Shown in pieces: positions 46,203 through 54,191 of a DNA stretch of 64,000 nucleotides. The first letter of the stretch is position 1, and each line of letters opens with the position of its first letter. The stretch comes from Pyramidobacter sp. YE332 (lineage in GTDB: Bacteria > Synergistota > Synergistia > Synergistales > Dethiosulfovibrionaceae), in NCBI RefSeq assembly GCF_033060595.1, contig NZ_CP133038.1, forward strand, positions 2,604,001 through 2,668,000, read 5' to 3'. Made by a program: the position numbers and the translations under genes. Under the pieces are notes generated by a model, which did not search any database, was not told where the DNA came from, and saw nothing but the letters and a program-made list of their open reading frames with translations.

Positions 46203-47201
46203 TTACTTCGCGTCGGGAACTTCGGCGTTCCAGCGGGCCAGCAGGCGATCCTTGTTGGCGGCGTCCCACACGTCGTCCTGATCGACGAACTTCAGCTCGG
46301 AGACTTTCTTGCCGAGCACCGGGATCTCCGCGTCCGCGCCGAGCGGGATCACGTACCAGCCGCCGATGATCTTCTGTCCCTTGGGGCTGAGCACCCAGTC
46401 GTAGAGCTTCTTGGCCTCGACCGGTTCGGGCCCGTTCTTGAGCAGCGACATCGAGGCCGTCTCGTAGCCAGCGCCCTCTTCGGGCACGGCCAGCGTCATC
46501 GGCGCGCCGTTGACGACCAGCTTGATCAGGTCGTGCAGATAGCCGATGGCGATGGGCACCTCGCCGATCGCGCAGGACTTGCCGGGTGCGGAACCGGACT
46601 TGGTGTACTGATCCATGGCGGCGTTCATCTTCTTGAGGAACTCGAAGCCCTTGTCCTCGTCGTTGCCGTTGATGCGGATCACGTTGGTGACCACGTTGTA
46701 GCCTGTGCCGGAGGTGGCGGGATTGGCGACGCGCACCATCCCGGCGTACTCGGGCTTGAGCAGGTCGGCCCACTTCGTGGGCGCGGCGACGTTCAGCGCC
46801 CTGGCGCGGTCGTTGTTGGTGGCGAAAGCGATGCAGCCGAGGTACAGCCCCGACCAGCAGTTGTCGGGATCGCGGAAACGCGCGGGCACGTTCTCGGCCG
46901 CCACGCGCGAGCGGTACGGCGCCGTCAGACCCTTGTTCTTGGCGTTGATGTGCAGCGTGCCGACGCCGCCCACCCAGATGGAAGCCTGCGGGTTCTCCTT
47001 CTCCGCCTCGATGCGGGCCACGGCCTCGCCGCTGGCCAGACGCACCCACTCCACCTTGATGCCCGTGTCGGCCTCGAAGGCGTCGAAAATCTCCTTCGCG
47101 AAAACTTCTTCCAGCGTCGTGTAGGCGCGCACCTTGTCCGCCGCCAGAGCGGGAACGCAAAGCGCCGTCACGCACAGCAGCGCGGCCAAAAACTTTTTCA
47201 T
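46203..47201 (-). CDS. FbpA/AfuA-type ABC transporter binding protein
   Basis: The protein has 332 residues with a signal peptide (residues 1-20, ending ALA). AYTTLEEVFAKEIFDAFEADTGIKVEWVRLASGEAVARIEAE and LKPEYAGMVRVANPATSGTGYNVV are typical of type II binding proteins for ferric iron, 2-aminoethylphosphonate or phosphoglycerate. The usual pair of adjacent tyrosines that binds iron in FbpA is not obvious; GWYVIPLGAD is near the C-terminus. A non-iron ligand is therefore quite possible. The ATG at 47201 follows AAAGGACG. It is the first gene of the ABC operon. Confidence 0.9.
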   Translation of the reverse strand: MKKFLAALLCVTALCVPALAADKVRAYTTLEEVFAKEIFDAFEADTGIKVEWVRLASGEAVARIEAEKENPQASIWVGGVGTLHINAKNKGLTAPYRSRVAAENVPARFRDPDNCWSGLYLGCIAFATNNDRARALNVAAPTKWADLLKPEYAGMVRVANPATSGTGYNVVTNVIRINGNDEDKGFEFLKKMNAAMDQYTKSGSAPGKSCAIGEVPIAIGYLHDLIKLVVNGAPMTLAVPEEGAGYETASMSLLKNGPEPVEAKKLYDWVLSPKGQKIIGGWYVIPLGADAEIPVLGKKVSELKFVDQDDVWDAANKDRLLARWNAEVPDAK

Positions 47202-47342
47202 GAGATCTCGTCCTTTCGAAAAGATTTTCTCTTGAAATTGCCCTGTTGAAGGAGCAACTTCATAAAACGAACTTTTACTAACCAATATGATTTTATCATA
47301 GAAAACGAAGAAATAAACCATTCAACTGCGTAGAGAAAGGAG

Positions 47343-47378
47343 CGAGGCCGTCTCAATTGACTGTTGAGACGGCCTCGG
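47343..47378. terminator. Hairpin after the TetR-GrdB fusion gene
   Basis: A perfect 13-bp stem (GAGGCCGTCTCAA and its inverse) lies 30 bases behind the fusion gene. The T run after it on the minus strand is short and interrupted, so termination strength is uncertain. Confidence 0.6.
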
Positions 47379-47407
47379 CATAGTGAGTAGGAAGCGCAGA
47401 TGAATCT

Positions 47408-48985
47408 CTACAACGCCAATGAGGCGACAAGACAGGAATTGTCTTCAGGCACAGCTTTCATCAATTCCAACCCTTTTTTGAAAAGAGAAAGACGATAGAT
47501 GCGTTCCTGTTTAGGAGAGAGGTCAGGGCGGCCGAAAGGACAGCTGACACTATTGCCTTGCAGGATACGACTGCATCCTACTCCTTCGGATATCTGAATA
47601 AGGTTGGTAACATGTACGACAGGGATGCCTAACTGCTCAATACTGCAGGCAATGTAGGCACCGCAACGAGTACTGGTACCACAGGTGGAAATAAGGAATA
47701 TGCCATCAACGTCATTCTTGGCCACAGCGGCGGCAATTTTACAGCCCAGTTGTTTGCTTCGCTCTACGGAGACCATAACGCCAGTGGTGGAATAGAAGGA
47801 CTCGGAAACTTCTCGGATCTGTCCGGCGAATTCAAGGATACGAGCGGCGTCTAACGGTACAAGACGGTTAGGATCTTCAAGCACAAATCGGTTGTCATAA
47901 CCCTGGTGGCTGATCTCGTAATCCTCGGGCAATAGACTGCGTTTTTCCTTGAAGGAGTAGACATAGAAACGGTCGGCATTGATAGGAACAAGATTGTCAG
48001 GATTGCCGCGAGGGACGAGTCCTCCATCGGTGACAAAAGCAATCCGGGTATCGCTAAGCTTTTTCTTCAGTACAGGCGCGGGCTGGAACTGCGGGCAAAC
48101 GATGGGGACTTCGCTTCGGAATTTCCGGCCGCGAAATTTGGCCAGCAGCATGTTGATGCCGCGCTGCGCTGCGGGAATGTGGTAATCAATGACAGGAACA
48201 GATTGGCAGGAAGGATTGGCGCTGCATTTTGCGCAGGATGAGTTACTGTTGAGGGAACGGCAACGTTTGATGCATTTAAAATGGGAACCGTCAACGATCT
48301 GAGTCTGATGTTCCCCTAGAGCGGGGGAAAAGGCAAAAAGCAGTTGTTTCAGCTGAGAGAAGGAACTGGCGTGGGCCGTATTGAGTTCCTGCAGGCTGTT
48401 CTGGATGGCGGCATAGCTCTGGCTTCCGGCCATACCGAGAAGCATGATGGAAAGTTTAGGCTTAATGGAGTTTAACTTTTCGAAGCGAGAAATCCCCTCG
48501 GCACGCATGCCGCCTTTGATCCAGTCTCCAATGGTGCCAGCGAAGGCATGGGAATACATACGAGCTACAATAGATAGCTGTTCCTCATTGATATGGTTGC
48601 CGGTCTGTCGGCTGGTGCTGGAGATATAAGTCTTCATCAGTTCGAAATAGATATTCTCGAGGGCGTCGAACAGGGAGTTCTGACCTGTATAGTGGAAGAC
48701 TTCCGAATAGAATTTACGATCTTTGTAGAGATGATGGCAGAGAGCAATGAAGCCGTCCCAGCTGCCTTCGAGGGAAGACGAACTGTCAATGAGGGGCAGC
48801 GCTTCGGAACAGAAGATCCAGTTCACTAAGTCGTATTTGTCGTGGAAATGGTAATAAAAAGCGTTCCGACTGACTTGGCACCGAGCGGAGATATCCTTGA
48901 TAGTGACTTGACTGAACTCCTTTTCTTTCATGAGTTCTCGCAGGGAAGCTGCTAAGGCAGACTTGGTGATCTCATTTCTCGACAT
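47408..48985 (-). CDS. TetR DNA-binding domain fused to a GrdB-like domain with Cys in place of Sec
   Basis: The protein has 525 residues. Residues 1-60 are a TetR helix-turn-helix (TIKDISARCQVSRNAFYYHFHDKYDLVNWIF), and residues 60-220 a helical TetR C-terminal domain of the DhaS-like type. Residues 238-260 hold five cysteines (CX3CX8CX2CX5C), a possible metal site. From 265 to 515 the sequence runs parallel to residues 179-430 of the GrdB-like selenoprotein encoded in the same cluster: VIDYHIPAAQRGINMLLAK, VTDGGLVPRGNPD, EISHQGYDNRFVL, DPNRLVPLDA, then STCGTSTRCG where GrdB has ST-Sec-GTSSRGG. So Cys435 replaces Sec, and Cys441 is extra. The N-terminal half of GrdB is missing. I infer a repressor that senses substrate or redox state through a copy of the enzyme site. 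It starts 104 bases behind the DsbA-like gene; the ATG at 48985 follows AAGGAGT. Confidence 0.85.
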   Translation of the reverse strand: MSRNEITKSALAASLRELMKEKEFSQVTIKDISARCQVSRNAFYYHFHDKYDLVNWIFCSEALPLIDSSSSLEGSWDGFIALCHHLYKDRKFYSEVFHYTGQNSLFDALENIYFELMKTYISSTSRQTGNHINEEQLSIVARMYSHAFAGTIGDWIKGGMRAEGISRFEKLNSIKPKLSIMLLGMAGSQSYAAIQNSLQELNTAHASSFSQLKQLLFAFSPALGEHQTQIVDGSHFKCIKRCRSLNSNSSCAKCSANPSCQSVPVIDYHIPAAQRGINMLLAKFRGRKFRSEVPIVCPQFQPAPVLKKKLSDTRIAFVTDGGLVPRGNPDNLVPINADRFYVYSFKEKRSLLPEDYEISHQGYDNRFVLEDPNRLVPLDAARILEFAGQIREVSESFYSTTGVMVSVERSKQLGCKIAAAVAKNDVDGIFLISTCGTSTRCGAYIACSIEQLGIPVVHVTNLIQISEGVGCSRILQGNSVSCPFGRPDLSPKQERIYRLSLFKKGLELMKAVPEDNSCLVASLAL

Positions 48986-49089
48986 GAGGGACTCCTTTAT
49001 ATTGAAAGGAACTGGAGATGTATGCAGCGGTAATACGTTGAAGCCATAGAGAACTAAATATCATGTTCCTATTATGTATGGCTCTAAAG

Positions 49090-49698
49090 TTATTTCATTT
49101 CTTTGTTGTCTCTGAGAATTTTATCAAACAACTGCGCCCATGTAGCACGGGACTGTACACCGGTGAGGAGATATTCATCGTTGACGATGAAAGCGGGAAC
49201 GCTCTTTGTGTCATAGGCAAGGCTGAGCTGGTAATTATGTTCCAGCACATCAGCATAATGTGGGTCAGAAAAGGCCTGCTGAATGCCGGCGGGAGGAATT
49301 CCCACGCCCAGAGCCAGTTCTGCCACTTGCTCCGGCGTGCTGATGTCGTGCCCTTGTTTCATGTATGCATCCCACACAGACCGCAGGAAAGAGCCCCCCT
49401 TGCCTGCCTCGCGGGCATAGATCATCATCAGCAGCGCATGATGTGTATTGGCAAAGTGCTCTTTGCAGGCGAGCTCAAGGCCGTAAGGAGCGCCCAGTTC
49501 ATTGAGAACCTTAAAAAAGTGCTTGTAGCGAATGTTGTGCTGCTTCATCGGTATTCCCAAAGGTGGGGTCTCTGGGTGAATCTCGTACCAGAGACAATCA
49601 ACTTTAAAATCATAGGAGTCATGAAGAGTATCCAATATATTCCAAGCTAGATAACACCACTCGCATATAATATCGGTAAACATCTTTATTTGAATCAT
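49090..49698 (-). CDS. DsbA-family thiol oxidoreductase (FrnE-like)
   Basis: The protein has 202 residues and no signal peptide, so it is cytoplasmic. FTDIICEWCYLAW (residues 7-19) has the CXXC redox pair as CEWC, and KSVPAFIVN near residue 166 is the usual cis-proline loop. EIHPETPPLGIPM and the central helical insert fit the FrnE/2-hydroxychromene-isomerase-like branch. In this cluster it could reduce or oxidise the selenocysteine of the GrdB-like protein, or the cysteines of the TetR fusion. It lies between the two. The ATG at 49698 follows AGGAGGAATTCC. A perfect 16-bp palindrome lies 22 bases upstream. Confidence 0.88.
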   Translation of the reverse strand: MIQIKMFTDIICEWCYLAWNILDTLHDSYDFKVDCLWYEIHPETPPLGIPMKQHNIRYKHFFKVLNELGAPYGLELACKEHFANTHHALLMMIYAREAGKGGSFLRSVWDAYMKQGHDISTPEQVAELALGVGIPPAGIQQAFSDPHYADVLEHNYQLSLAYDTKSVPAFIVNDEYLLTGVQSRATWAQLFDKILRDNKEMK

Positions 49699-49720
49699 GG
49701 AATTCCTCCTGAGAATGCGT

Positions 49721-49736
49721 CATGTTTATAAACATG
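49721..49736. promoter_or_regulatory. Candidate operator palindrome
   Basis: CATGTTTATAAACATG is a perfect 16-bp palindrome 22 bases upstream of the DsbA-like gene. TetR-type proteins bind palindromes of about this size. The half-site CATGTT also occurs at 49062-49067 upstream of the fusion gene, and AACATGTT occurs in the region upstream of the MFS gene (near 53845). The link to the TetR-GrdB protein is inferred. Confidence 0.45.
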
Positions 49737-49742
49737 CGAAAC

Positions 49743-49786
49743 GCACGGGCAGCCGAAAGAAGGCTGTCCGTGCTCTTTTTGTTTTT
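49743..49786. terminator. Hairpin between the GrdB-like and DsbA-like genes
   Basis: GCACGGGCAGCC pairs with GGCTGTCCGTGC around a short loop. The T-rich run is on the plus-strand side; on the minus strand, where the genes lie, the tail is only weakly T-rich. It could attenuate transcription between the two genes. Confidence 0.45.
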
Positions 49787-49798
49787 CTTCTGGTTCCT

Positions 49799-51112
49799 TT
49801 ATTCTTCGACGATGGCCGTTTTGCCTTCCGCGGGAGTCTTTTCAAGAAGGTCAAGCGCCTGCTTTACCTTCTCTTCGCGGAAGTTCTGCTCACTGGACAA
49901 AGGCAGCGAGGGATCTCCAAAAACGTGGAGAACGCTATTACCGCGAAGGATTCTATTTGCGCCGATACCTTCAGCAATCTTGGTAAGATTGGTAACTTGG
50001 ACAACGGGAATGCCCGCGCGCTGAATTTCTTTTGTAATCATGGACCCGCCACGACTTGAAGTGCCTCAGGTGCTTGTCTCTATCACCGCGTCGACGCCTT
50101 CTTTTTTCAAGAGCTCGGCGATGCCTTCGCCGAACGACTTGCATTTTTCCATGGGCGTCATAACGCCTGCGGTGGAGAAGATCGTGTCGTTAACGGAACC
50201 GATGACCCCGGCCTTGGCTAAGCGACGCAAGGCGTCGATAGGAACGAGGCGGTTAGGGTCAGCAAGAACAAAGGCATTATTATAGCCCTGATGGCTGACC
50301 TCCCAATCCTTGGCCTGGAGACTGTCCATTCCTGCCACGGAATATTCCTTGAACGCCTTGGAATTTGTGGGGACCTGACCGTCGGGATTGCCTTTGGGAA
50401 CCAGACCGCCATCGGTCACCACAGCAATACGGCATTCGGACAGTGGCTTATTCAGTGTGGGGACAGGGATCTGTTCATGGTTAGGCATAATAACTTCGGT
50501 ATGGTAAGGTTTTCCGGCAACTTTGGCCAACAGCATGTCGATGCCGCGGACGGCCGCGGGAGTAGAGTAATCAATGACAACCGCGGGACCGCTGCCGTGG
50601 TAGTGTTCTTCCTTGCCGTCGCGGATCGCGTCGCCGGAGACAAGACGCTTTGCGAATTCAGCGATCTGTTTTAGGACTTCTGCCATTTGATGTGCGTTAT
50701 TGCTGGTCTGTAAAATGTAACAACGATTCTTGTAAAGATCCGTACCGGGGTTCTCGGAGTAGAGAGCCGTTACCGCGGGAATGCGAAGCTGTTCCGTGAC
50801 GGCTGCGGTAGCGCTGCCGCACCCCAGGCCGTAACGTCCGGCGTTGAATCCGGGGCCGGCGACAAAGAGGTCGGCACCCGCATCTTTTACGGCCTGTACA
50901 ATCTGAGGCAGGATGACTTCGGCCTTTTCAGCGATGGTATTGTCGCCGCAGATGATCGTCTTGACAATCTCATACTCATCGCCCAAAGCGGCTTTGAGGG
51001 CGAGCCCCGGGCCGACGGGACCGTCCTTGACCGACAATCCGATACTGGCTTCCGTTTCGCCGCCGATGCCGGCGTAAAACTGATTAATGTAATGCACTAC
51101 TTTCTTGGTCAT
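49799..51112 (-). CDS. GrdB/GrdF/GrdH-type selenoprotein B of an amino-acid reductase-like complex
   Basis: Read through the in-frame TGA at 50068-50066, the gene gives 437 residues with selenocysteine at 349, the normal length and Sec position for GrdB. Conserved blocks are HYINQFYAGIGGE, ICGDNTIAE, AGPGFNAGRYGLGCG, VVTDGGLVPKGNPDG, EVSHQGYNNAF, then ST-Sec-GTSSRGGSM and PVVQVTNLTKIAEGIGANRI. In glycine, sarcosine and betaine reductases this subunit binds the substrate and passes its carboxymethyl group to selenoprotein A. Here GrdA, C and D are absent from the window. The start is 2 bases after the GrdE-like stop; AGGAGGTTTAATC precedes the ATG at 51112. Ordinary gene callers would split it in two. 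The substrate type cannot be decided. Confidence 0.92.
50020..50068 (-). promoter_or_regulatory. Sec UGA codon and probable SECIS region
   Basis: The UGA at 50068-50066 is followed at once by GGCACTTCAAGTCGTGGCGG, in which short inverted segments (CAC/GTG, and ACC/GGGT across the UGA) could form the small apical-loop hairpin needed by bacterial SelB. The structure was not folded. Confidence 0.5.
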
Positions 51113-51114
51113 GA

Positions 51115-52383
51115 TTAAACCTCCTTAACAGCGGGGATAATGTCACTATCGGTAGTCACGTAACAGTCGCCAAGCTGAGACCAAATCCCCTGATAACAGA
51201 AGTTCGTGGTGTGAATGAAGGGTCCCCAAGGATCGACGCCGAGCAGGCACGGGACGTTGGAATGTTCTCCGATCAGACGCTCAACTCTGGGATGGTGCAG
51301 ATCCCAGTTGCGCCCGCTGTTGATAACGGCATCGACATTGGGATCGGCGATGACCAACATGTCGCCGGGCTGGTCGTTGGAAACGGCGGAAAGGTTCAAA
51401 GCGGCGGGCATGCCGAGTTTCTGGCACCAGTTGAACGCTAGAGCGGAGTCGAGCTGGCAGTGCCCCATCCCGGATTTGTTCAACATGACGCAGTCGGCTC
51501 CCAGCGTATCCTTGCATAAAGTGGCGGCGATCATGCCCATCGTGTCCTTGCCGTCGATCTTCATGACATTGTTGGCAAAAACGATGCCCACGAACTCCAG
51601 ATCCTTGCCGTGGCGTTTCATCAGTTCCTTGATGTAAACCTCATTCTGCAGGAAGTAATTAGGTTCCCAGTAGCGCCAAATCATAGCGCCGTCAAGAATC
51701 TCCGTAGGCTGCACGATCATGGGCAGGAAATTCAACGCGCTCTGGCCGTAGTACAGGAAATTCCACGTGTCGTGCGACGCCATATGAGTGACGAGATAGG
51801 CGACTTTAGGCAGATGTTTTGAAGGATCCACGGACTTGCGCTCGTAAACCTCCGTCTCGTCGGGCTTGAGTTCGATGGCCAGCTTGGCCAGATAAACGTT
51901 CAGCGACAGCGAGGCGTGCTTGAGAGCCTCGGCATACGTCACGTCGGCTACCCCTTCGCCGGGAGTGGCGTCAATACAGATATGGATGTGACGGGAGAAA
52001 TTGCTGTATTTAGCGCATTCTCCGCCCATGTCCATGTAATACTTGATGTTGCACTTTGCATAGTAGATGTCGGAGATGACAACACCTTTCAGCGCCACCG
52101 TGCGTCCCTCGCCGGCGGGGGCCAGTTTGCCCCAGATGCCAGGATAGGACTCTTCGGGATGATCTGCCTTGCAGCGAGGCTGCATAACATCGTGAATACT
52201 CAGGATTCGGCAACTTTCGCCGGGCTTGGCAATCTTGAGATCGATCGTACCGAATAAATCGCTGCTGACGATCTTCATTGCCTCTTCCTTGTTAATGGTC
52301 AGCACACCGTTGACAAGGGAAGTTTTTTCACCAAACTGTACGTCGCGGACGTGAACATAGTCGATCTGCAATCTCTTACCCAT
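51115..52383 (-). CDS. GrdE-like component B subunit, lacking the pyruvoyl-site cysteine
   Basis: The protein has 422 residues, near the GrdE/GrdG/GrdI length of 428. The N-terminus (FGEKTSLVNGVLTINKEEA), HDVMQPRCKAD, VALKGVVISDI, and the second half (IKELMKRHGKDLEFVGIVFANN, LGADCVMLNKSGMGH) match this family. In GrdE the chain is cleaved before a cysteine, just ahead of the EELYRRHGKDL block, and that cysteine becomes a pyruvoyl group. Here the matching stretch LDGAMIWRYWEPNYF (residues 230-244) has no cysteine, so cleavage and pyruvoyl formation are unlikely. It lies 87 bases behind the MFS gene and 2 bases before the GrdB-like gene. The ATG at 52383 follows GAGAGGAAG. Confidence 0.85.
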   Translation of the reverse strand: MGKRLQIDYVHVRDVQFGEKTSLVNGVLTINKEEAMKIVSSDLFGTIDLKIAKPGESCRILSIHDVMQPRCKADHPEESYPGIWGKLAPAGEGRTVALKGVVISDIYYAKCNIKYYMDMGGECAKYSNFSRHIHICIDATPGEGVADVTYAEALKHASLSLNVYLAKLAIELKPDETEVYERKSVDPSKHLPKVAYLVTHMASHDTWNFLYYGQSALNFLPMIVQPTEILDGAMIWRYWEPNYFLQNEVYIKELMKRHGKDLEFVGIVFANNVMKIDGKDTMGMIAATLCKDTLGADCVMLNKSGMGHCQLDSALAFNWCQKLGMPAALNLSAVSNDQPGDMLVIADPNVDAVINSGRNWDLHHPRVERLIGEHSNVPCLLGVDPWGPFIHTTNFCYQGIWSQLGDCYVTTDSDIIPAVKEV

Positions 52384-52470
52384 AATTTGCACTTCCTCTC
52401 CAGAAATCCTCTTCCTCCATTTAAGAGGAGGAAGGGAGGCTGTAATCACCAAAATCCAACGAACGACGAA

Positions 52471-53664
52471 CTAGGCCTCGGCCTTTCTTGCACTTGGAAG
52501 GGCGAGGACCAGCAGGATACCAATGACAGCTACGGTACCGGCACAGGTGAAAGCGGCAGTGGTGCCGAGCATCTTGGCGGCGATAGAGCTGGCGATGGAA
52601 CCGGTGCCGAATCCGATCATCGTCAGAGACAAAATGGTGCCGACGTTCTTGGTGCCGAAACGGTCGGCGGCGATCGGCGCAAAGCAGGCCTGGCATCCGC
52701 CGAAGGAGAAACTCAAAAGGCCGAAGCAGGTCACGTACAGAGTTCCCGTCGCCACGCTGAGCAGAGCAACGCCTCCGGCCGTGATCAGAAAACTGAGGGC
52801 AAAGGCAGCTTTGCGTCCGATCTTGTCGCTGATAGTAGGGATAAGGAAGCGGCCCCCGACTTGGCACATGGAAGCAACACTGACACCAAGCGTGGCAAGC
52901 GCAGGAGTCAGCCCCCTGTCGGCGCCGTAGCTGACAAAGATAGCGCTGAGCAGCAGATAGGCGGGGACAGCGCAGAAATATAACCCCATAATGATCCAGA
53001 ATTCTTTGAGGCGAAGCACTTCGCCGACCTCATACTGTTTCTTGGAGGTAACCACAGGCCCCGTGCCCACATAGTCGGACATGAAGCCCGCAGGCGGCAA
53101 TTTCATTGTGATGGTTCCGAGCACGCCGACGCCGGCATAGATGGCGGCGACGATAAGAAAAGCGGTCGTGTAGCCGTAGGTCTTAAGCCAGCTGCTGACG
53201 AAAGGGCTGAAGACAGTTGCGGACATGCCGAGCATCGCCATGGTCAGGCCGGAAGCAAGCCCCTTGCGGTCAACGAACCATTTAGGCATCAGTGAGACAA
53301 TGACGTTGTAGACGATCCCGTCGCCGATACCGAAGAGACCTCCAAAGGTTATGTACATAGCCGAGAACATGTCGGCGGGCAGATAAGCGGAGATGAGCCA
53401 GCCGAGGACCATCAAAACGTAACCGACGACCAGCGTTCTCTTGATGCTGTATTTCTGCTGCATGCGGCCGCCGACAAAGTTGCCGATACAGAAAATGGCG
53501 ATGAAGATGGTAAATGGCAGACTCGCCGTGGGAGAATCCACGTTGAAGTGCTGCATGATGTAGGGTTGAAAGAGGCTGTATGTGTAGCACACTCCCATGA
53601 TCAACATGCAGATCATGCCGAAAAACAATATTGCCCACCTGTTGGAACCGTTTCCCTGGTTCAT
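52471..53664 (-). CDS. MFS transporter (oxalate/formate antiporter-like)
   Basis: The protein has 397 residues with twelve membrane segments. NRWAILFFGMICMLIMGVCYTYSLFQPYI and FGGLFGIGDGIVYNVIVSLMPKWFVDRKGLASGLTMAMLG are typical of the OFA group, which moves small carboxylates. Loop 2-3 reads GGRMQQKYSIKR, and the repeat unit between helices 8 and 9 reads ISDKIGRKAA. It heads the cluster of GrdE-like, GrdB-like, DsbA-like and TetR-GrdB genes, so it likely imports the substrate of that system. The ATG at 53664 follows GGGAGGAAAA. The substrate is probably a small carboxylate or zwitterion. Confidence 0.88.
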   Translation of the reverse strand: MNQGNGSNRWAILFFGMICMLIMGVCYTYSLFQPYIMQHFNVDSPTASLPFTIFIAIFCIGNFVGGRMQQKYSIKRTLVVGYVLMVLGWLISAYLPADMFSAMYITFGGLFGIGDGIVYNVIVSLMPKWFVDRKGLASGLTMAMLGMSATVFSPFVSSWLKTYGYTTAFLIVAAIYAGVGVLGTITMKLPPAGFMSDYVGTGPVVTSKKQYEVGEVLRLKEFWIIMGLYFCAVPAYLLLSAIFVSYGADRGLTPALATLGVSVASMCQVGGRFLIPTISDKIGRKAAFALSFLITAGGVALLSVATGTLYVTCFGLLSFSFGGCQACFAPIAADRFGTKNVGTILSLTMIGFGTGSIASSIAAKMLGTTAAFTCAGTVAVIGILLVLALPSARKAEA

Positions 53665-54191
53665 GATGTTTTCCTCCCGTAACTTGAGATAAGACAAAAG
53701 ACACCTTAGAGGGACGTAAAGTTTTTAGATATAGTGGCATAATGGCAGAATTTTTGCTGCGTTATAAATTTATATATGCTCTATCTACCTCCCGTTTATT
53801 CCCGAACAGCACGTCAAATCGGCCGATCCATTACTTTATGCATGAACATGTTATCCGCTAAAGTTTAAAAATTCATTTTACAAATGCCGCATAATGTAAA
53901 AAAAAAGATACATTTATGGGCGATTGTGAAGTATCTGGCGGAAGGAAAACGTATGTCTTTGGAAAAAAAATTGCTTGACGATGATAATCTTGCAATAAAA
54001 ATTGAAGCAATATTTATTTTCACGTGATATAGGAAAATTATTATTTTCGTAAAGATATCTTGCGGATGATGTCTTTAGCCATGATGAAATCTCATGATAG
54101 AGTATAAAAAGATGAAATTTGTTTTTATGGAAGAATGCAGTTATAGTAGCAAATAGAATATTTTATCCTTCAGTAAAAGCGGGGTGCTTGC
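53665..54191. other. AT-rich divergent intergenic region
   Basis: This 527-base stretch separates the reductase cluster (minus) from the hydratase gene (plus). It is far richer in A and T than both sides. It contains a 12-bp palindrome TATAAATTTATA at about 53763, the sequence AACATGTT near 53845, and two copies of GCATAATG (near 53738 and 53889). Promoters for both directions must lie here. A 24-codon open frame at 53954-54028 has a ribosome-binding site but no recognisable content. Confidence 0.5.

Follow-up and report, generated by a model that had tools for sequence, protein, structure and literature searches.

A transcriptional regulator can sense by means of a former enzyme, and the described system closest to the gene treated in this work is the DhaS/DhaQ pair. 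As reportedly described by Christen et al. in 2006, DhaS is an activator of Lactococcus lactis and its co-activator DhaQ, a paralogue of the substrate-binding subunit DhaK, is said to bind dihydroxyacetone without turning it over. The PDB entries 2iu5, 2iu4 and 2iu6 belong to this DhaS/DhaQ system of L. lactis, and the PDB names DhaS an activator. Here we analyze a stretch of 64,000 nucleotides (the window: NZ_CP133038.1, positions 2,604,001 to 2,668,000) from the genome (2,795,328 bases) of the rumen bacterium Pyramidobacter sp. YE332, in which one gene encodes a DhaS-type TetR regulator fused to the C-terminal half of a GrdB-type protein, with cysteine in place of the active-site selenocysteine (Sec).

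In both DhaS/DhaQ and the module described below, the partner of the regulator is an altered paralogue of a substrate-handling enzyme subunit encoded nearby. However, DhaQ is a DhaK paralogue whereas the module partner is a truncated GrdB/FarB with a Sec-to-Cys change, and DhaS and DhaQ are two separate proteins, like most relatives of our gene but unlike the fused protein of the window. The MocR/GabR regulators, in turn, share with the window protein the fusion of a DNA-binding domain (GntR-type) to an enzyme-fold sensor (aminotransferase-like) (PMC5734734, PMC5320631), and differ from it in that both halves have unrelated folds, the chemistry is that of pyridoxal phosphate and no Sec-to-Cys exchange is involved. 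An enzyme-derived sensor in a regulator is thus a known kind (DhaS/DhaQ; MocR, PMC5734734). The author of an earlier note on this DNA knew of no described regulator built this way; as a principle it is precedented by DhaS/DhaQ, while our literature search retrieved no GrdB/FarB-half sensor with Sec changed to Cys, either alone or fused to a TetR protein. In the collection searched, no literature since 2020 combining fluoroacetate, glycine reductase and "transcriptional regulator" was found.

Fluoroacetate is a plant poison. Its reduction has been shown for C. porcorum, C. evryensis and P. piscolens, and fluoroacetate induces the farACEB operon of C. porcorum MFA1 about 5,000-fold on average, the induction by glycine not being high (PMC10838667). 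In the same paper, clusters similar to farB are said in the legend of Figure 3 to include fadR and acrR genes, and the text names no sensor (PMC10838667); no described sensor for the far operon was found in the literature searched. We propose, with a probability of roughly 0.6, that the fused protein is a dedicated regulator of the adjacent farA-farE-farB genes, whose FarB-derived half would bind a halocarboxylate or a close analogue and signal to the TetR half. This proposal builds on the architecture of the protein, its link to the far genes, its common ancestry with FarB and the kept active-site positions, all of which are read from the sequences.

Architecture of the fused gene

The gene and its parts are the following.

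47408..48985, minus strand: fused gene, TetR (DhaS-type) plus C-terminal GrdB/FarB half with Cys at the Sec position, 525 amino acids
48821..48940, minus strand: TetR_N helix-turn-helix, residues 16-55 (PF00440, 38.8 bits against a Pfam cut-off of 24, E 8.2e-10)
48500..48757, minus strand: TetR_C_8, residues 77-162 (PF14278, 61.6 bits)
48194..48427, minus strand: linker, residues 187-264, with five cysteines; only in the fusion, disordered from 201 on in the model
47432..48193, minus strand: GrdB C-terminal half (putative sensor domain), residues 265-518, 49% identity to FarB 179-434
47681..47683, minus strand: TGT codon of Cys435, in place of the active-site selenocysteine (alignment, motif comparison, model)
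47663..47665, minus strand: TGC codon of Cys441, the ancestral GrdB cysteine, in all short Cys-GrdBs and not in true FarB (motif comparison)
47343..47377, minus strand: terminator-like stem of 14 pairs after the fused gene

The earlier note had placed the gene correctly, except that it lies on the minus strand (48985 to 47408), and had recognized a TetR-type protein in residues 1-220; both Pfam and fold agree with the type, the extent being here 1-190. Indeed, residues 1-192 adopt the all-helical TetR-type fold, the best matches being 4mk6 (Z 17.5, root-mean-square deviation 2.9) and DhaS itself (2iu5, Z 16.0), the next one scoring 13.6; the fold-match list of the fused protein was filled by TetR chains. 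Profile, sequence (4mk6, 2iu5) and fold all place the TetR part closest to DhaS-type regulators. The fused protein scores 100.6 bits with the DhaS equivalog TIGR02366, below the curated cut-off of 129 (relatives, 97.1 and 124.6), and no dihydroxyacetone kinase (Dak1, PF02733) was found in this genome. By analogy, the TetR part would most likely work as in the DhaS/DhaQ system, yet its score is too low for it to count as a DhaS.

As for the other part, the GRDB profile (PF07355) matches residues 271-434 with its positions 184-347 of 347 (145.6 bits) and leaves positions 1-183 unmatched, in agreement with the claim that the N-terminal half of GrdB is absent. The alignment with the GrdB-like neighbor, FarB, that had been read from the sequence was recovered by BLASTP (residues 265-520 against 179-434, 256 ungapped columns), and so were its distance of 0.8 kb (a gap of 813 bp between farB and the fused gene) and the position of Cys435, which stands opposite Sec349 of FarB. 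In contrast to the GrdB/FarB family, the fused gene has a cysteine codon there and no in-frame UGA. In the AlphaFold model, the TetR part (1-180) and most of residues 300-515 are well ordered, residues 201-266 between them are disordered, and Cys435 lies between a strand (428-433) and a helix (436-450). No solved GrdB structure was found when sought by sequence, and a FarB model built from three sequences (mean predicted local distance difference test score 60.9) was too poor to use.

A different explanation of this architecture is a sequencing error, a single base dropped from or added to the linker having merged two overlapping genes into one. The assembly is built on PacBio RS II reads, a search of its announcement finding no Illumina, Nanopore or polishing (PMC11008178), and in a PacBio-only assembly a one-base error could hide two overlapping genes like those of the relatives, all nine of which are split, several with an overlap of a few bases; possible starts do exist in another frame of the linker (ATG at gene nucleotides 710 and 758). 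However, the whole fused frame scores as coding, the linker frame scores above the other two and runs through 82 codons without meeting a stop (a chance of about 5%), and the sequence from the candidate starts to the GrdB part contains no run of at least five identical bases. Moreover, start codons are absent from frame 0 between residues 186 and 278, which leaves the GrdB part no way to start alone shortly before its core. A single-base error in the linker thus appears unlikely, and the two-protein module described below stands independently of whether the fusion of the window is real.

Relatives and their far-type neighbors

The fused protein was used as a query against 188 Synergistota genomes, where it also matched ordinary selenocysteine GrdBs, and a further search covered 397 genomes from the family (Lachnospiraceae) of a Dorea metagenome-assembled genome (G188). 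A small set of matches without internal stop stood out, corresponding to a short GrdB that consists of the C-terminal half only, starts at PF07355 profile position 181 and has Cys (TGC or TGT) at the Sec position. This short Cys-GrdB, together with a DhaS-type TetR, has far-type genes as neighbors at each of the ten places where it was found, in nine genomes of two phyla, which argues for a regulator of the far genes. The fused form is present only in the window among the genomes searched; the other nine loci (G136, G137, G098, G116, G118, the second far-type cluster of the same genome at C1:360-364 kb, G188 and, among the 397 genomes, G1135 and G1068) carry two genes. At G1135 and G1068, TetR, short GrdB, farE and farB stand in a row. 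At eight of the nine split loci the two genes are co-oriented, with TetR immediately ahead of the short GrdB, and in five the stop and start overlap; in G188 the two genes are divergent. A DNA pattern for the Cys motif occurred at seven places in the 188 genomes, every one of them this module.

Since the two parts are neighboring genes elsewhere, the unit in question is a two-protein module of which the fusion is the exception, and the one fused and nine adjacent occurrences of the two halves suggest a joint action of the proteins. The condition that no other genome carries the architecture, under which the earlier note would have given up its idea, therefore applies to the fused form in the genomes searched and not to the pair. 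To our knowledge, MocR/GabR regulators have no split form.

In the window, three far genes lie close to the module.

49799..51112, minus strand: farB, GrdB-type selenoprotein, Sec349 encoded by TGA at 50066-50068
51115..52386, minus strand: farE, fluoroacetate reductase subunit (NF053623, 869.6 bits, cut-off 675)
52471..53664, minus strand: farA, major facilitator superfamily transporter (oxalate/formate-lactate type), 77% identical to the transporter of the G137 far cluster

From farA the cluster continues with farE and farB, followed by a DsbA-like gene and finally the fusion. As a FarE above the NF053623 cut-off adjoins a FarB-type selenoprotein, the cluster is, as judged from these sequences, a fluoroacetate-reductase locus, and the partner enzyme is FarB rather than the generic GrdB of the earlier description. 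FarE above the cut-off occurs in seven Synergistota genomes, six of which have the TetR/short Cys-GrdB pair. The module was not found beside other types of GrdB, and the other DhaS-like TetRs (L044-L094) had no GrdB nearby; no relatives were found in the viral contigs searched, nor at the threshold used among 296 Spirochaetota genomes, a search made without positive control.

The second far-type cluster of the same genome (L009:8000-12350) holds farE (935.5 bits), a farB-like gene and, as two distinct genes that overlap, TetR and short Cys-GrdB. Its neighbors include an L-lactate permease and an alpha/beta hydrolase, which suggests that its substrate may be a different small acid. In G118 (L099:12238-12250), the TetR frame lacks the first residues and the usual start, the rest being nearly identical to the L009 copy, probably through a small indel or draft error. 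In G188, which also has ordinary GrdBs, farA is immediately preceded by the short Cys-GrdB, and the contig (L125, CAMSTW010000085.1) ends right after farA.

Origin and cysteines of the GrdB part

In a tree of 49 C-terminal halves, the sensors and the FarBs came together in a single clade (100/99) to which none of the 31 other GrdBs belonged; the window sensor grouped with those of G136 and G137. When more sensors were included, they occupied one side of a branch at 85/97, a support that is not firm; the TetRs of the module formed one group at 93/91. On the evidence of these trees, the Cys-GrdBs are a sister lineage of FarB with common ancestry. The sensor thus resembles FarB in sequence (49% identity over the C-terminal half) and clade, and differs from it in that FarB is a full-length enzyme with Sec in the active site and without the second Cys (PMC10838667). 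GrdB, GrdF and GrdH, the selenoproteins B of glycine, sarcosine and betaine reductase, share with the sensor PF07355 and the motif around Sec/Cys; they are only about 34-41% identical to it, have Sec and further motif cysteines, carry no regulator domain, and all 31 examples of these types fall outside the sensor/FarB clade.

Across eight sensors, the 29 enzyme-invariant columns are 97% kept, the change of Sec to Cys being the one systematic change, and a comparison of two Pyramidobacter copies gives a ratio of nonsynonymous to synonymous substitution rates of 0.14 (short GrdB) and 0.05 (TetR). These values indicate that the split relatives are under purifying selection, and rule out a decaying GrdB remnant, the second ground on which the earlier note would have been abandoned. 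The conservation of active-site positions might also be explained if the GrdB part were still an enzyme, a Cys-FarB without the N-terminal half, and TetR a bystander. We regard this as very improbable: the replacement of Sec by Cys, the loss of a whole half and the company of TetR at ten of the ten places point to regulation.

The motif around the active site is STUGTCTRCGA in ordinary GrdBs, STUGTS[ST]RCGA in FarB-like enzymes, STUGTSSRGGS in true FarB (window, G136, G137) and S[TA]CGTS[ST]RCG in the sensors. According to this comparison, the second cysteine (Cys441) is ancestral in GrdBs, was lost by FarB and was kept by the sensors, and a newly gained second cysteine is ruled out; the CX5C pair that the earlier note saw created by Cys441 is therefore inherited. 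The five linker cysteines it listed (238, 242, 251, 254 and 260) are indeed present, but they are not found in the relatives and lie in the stretch predicted to be disordered.

These observations bear on the idea of a thiol redox sensor, in which a Cys435-Cys441 disulfide formed on oxidation would switch DNA binding, the GrdB fold serving as scaffold only. The CX5C pair is in fact found in every short Cys-GrdB, and a DsbA-like gene precedes the fusion; however, a pure redox switch would not need the other enzyme-invariant positions, which are also kept, DsbA-like genes were found at the Pyramidobacter loci only, and the presence of Cys441, being an ancestral GrdB residue, needs no new function. 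We therefore consider a redox switch unlikely.

A predicted regulator of the far genes

The likeness of the TetR part to DhaS and the repetition of the same plan with a different enzyme lead us to propose that the FarB half binds the substrate and the TetR half activates the far genes. The N-terminal DhaS-type domain would bind DNA, putatively at the far promoters, and the C-terminal pseudo-enzyme, with Cys for the catalytic Sec, would bind the substrate, a small halocarboxylate, or a compound closely resembling it, and signal to the TetR domain, most likely activating far transcription, as DhaQ does for DhaS; activation rather than repression is what we infer from this parallel. In the relatives, the separate TetR and short GrdB, made from adjacent and often overlapping genes, would presumably form a complex, whereas in the window protein both parts would act within one chain. 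Cys435 might either be alkylated by the substrate or only line the pocket. In the first case, the retired selenoenzyme active site would be a covalent chemosensor: a single attack of Cys435 on the C-F (or C-X) carbon of the substrate would leave an S-carboxymethyl-cysteine that switches the TetR partner, an idea that we regard as doubtful. The suggestion of the earlier note, that of a transcription factor sensing through a copy of the enzyme active site, is in our opinion the best reading, given the nine further loci, the separate sensor lineage and the conserved positions, even though the fusion on which it was based is not the rule.

It is also conceivable that the module senses the enzyme system rather than the substrate, the half-GrdB putatively docking FarE or carboxymethylated protein A (GrdA) and reporting flux or subunit supply. 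The kept half carries the active-site residue, and, according to a published proposal, FarB and FarE work as a complex from which the product of FarB passes to protein A (PMC10838667); on the other hand, the N-terminal half of GrdB is missing, and we hold this version to be quite improbable.

Several points weigh against a dedicated regulator of the far genes that senses their substrate. The far-type cluster of G127 lacks the module, and two Clostridia far-type clusters adjoin a PocR-AraC gene (L123:6141-7286) and a PAS-sigma54 gene (L124:14811-16355) instead; the module is thus common but not obligatory, and control of far has probably been recruited several times. No operator common to the far promoters was found, the palindromes and dyads upstream being no more than in shuffled sequence or expected by chance. 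The half-domain alone might not bind the substrate, as the GrdB N-terminal half and FarE may complete the site, and the L-lactate permease of the second-type clusters means that the natural ligand may not be fluoroacetate. Finally, the transcriptome data on far were published for another species, and the text of that paper describes no regulator gene in the induced operon (PMC10838667).

If a substrate-sensing regulator is what the module encodes, it would be a candidate regulator, conserved across two phyla, for an anaerobic route that breaks the C-F bond, and a second case of the DhaS/DhaQ type with an unrelated enzyme, which would make a TetR with an enzyme-paralogue co-sensor a recurring design. 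The one-chain version should be easy to express and test and might be a starting point for a fluoroacetate biosensor, and the Sec-to-Cys change would let the pocket of a selenoenzyme be studied without catalysis. Should the covalent mechanism hold, a fluoroacetate-responsive regulator would have been built from the detoxifying enzyme itself.

The interval between farB and the fusion contains three further features.

49090..49698, minus strand: DsbA-like thioredoxin-fold gene directly upstream of the fusion (PF01323, 94.6 bits)
49721..49736, no strand: 16-bp perfect palindrome CATGTTTATAAACATG, candidate operator only, present once in the window, 22 bp upstream of the DsbA-like start
49743..49773, no strand: terminator-like stem between farB and the DsbA-like gene

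No terminator was found in the 104-bp gap between the DsbA-like gene and the fusion; the two possibly form one transcription unit, of which the palindrome is a possible operator. The DsbA-like protein carries a CEWC motif. A protein 41% identical to it is encoded within about 5 kb of the second far-type cluster in Pyramidobacter genomes (L009:3123-3707; L098; L099), and no such gene was found at the G136 and G137 loci. The far cluster and its regulator (window positions 47000-54000) have a guanine plus cytosine content of 47-55%, compared with mostly 60-67% on both sides, which fits a horizontally acquired island.
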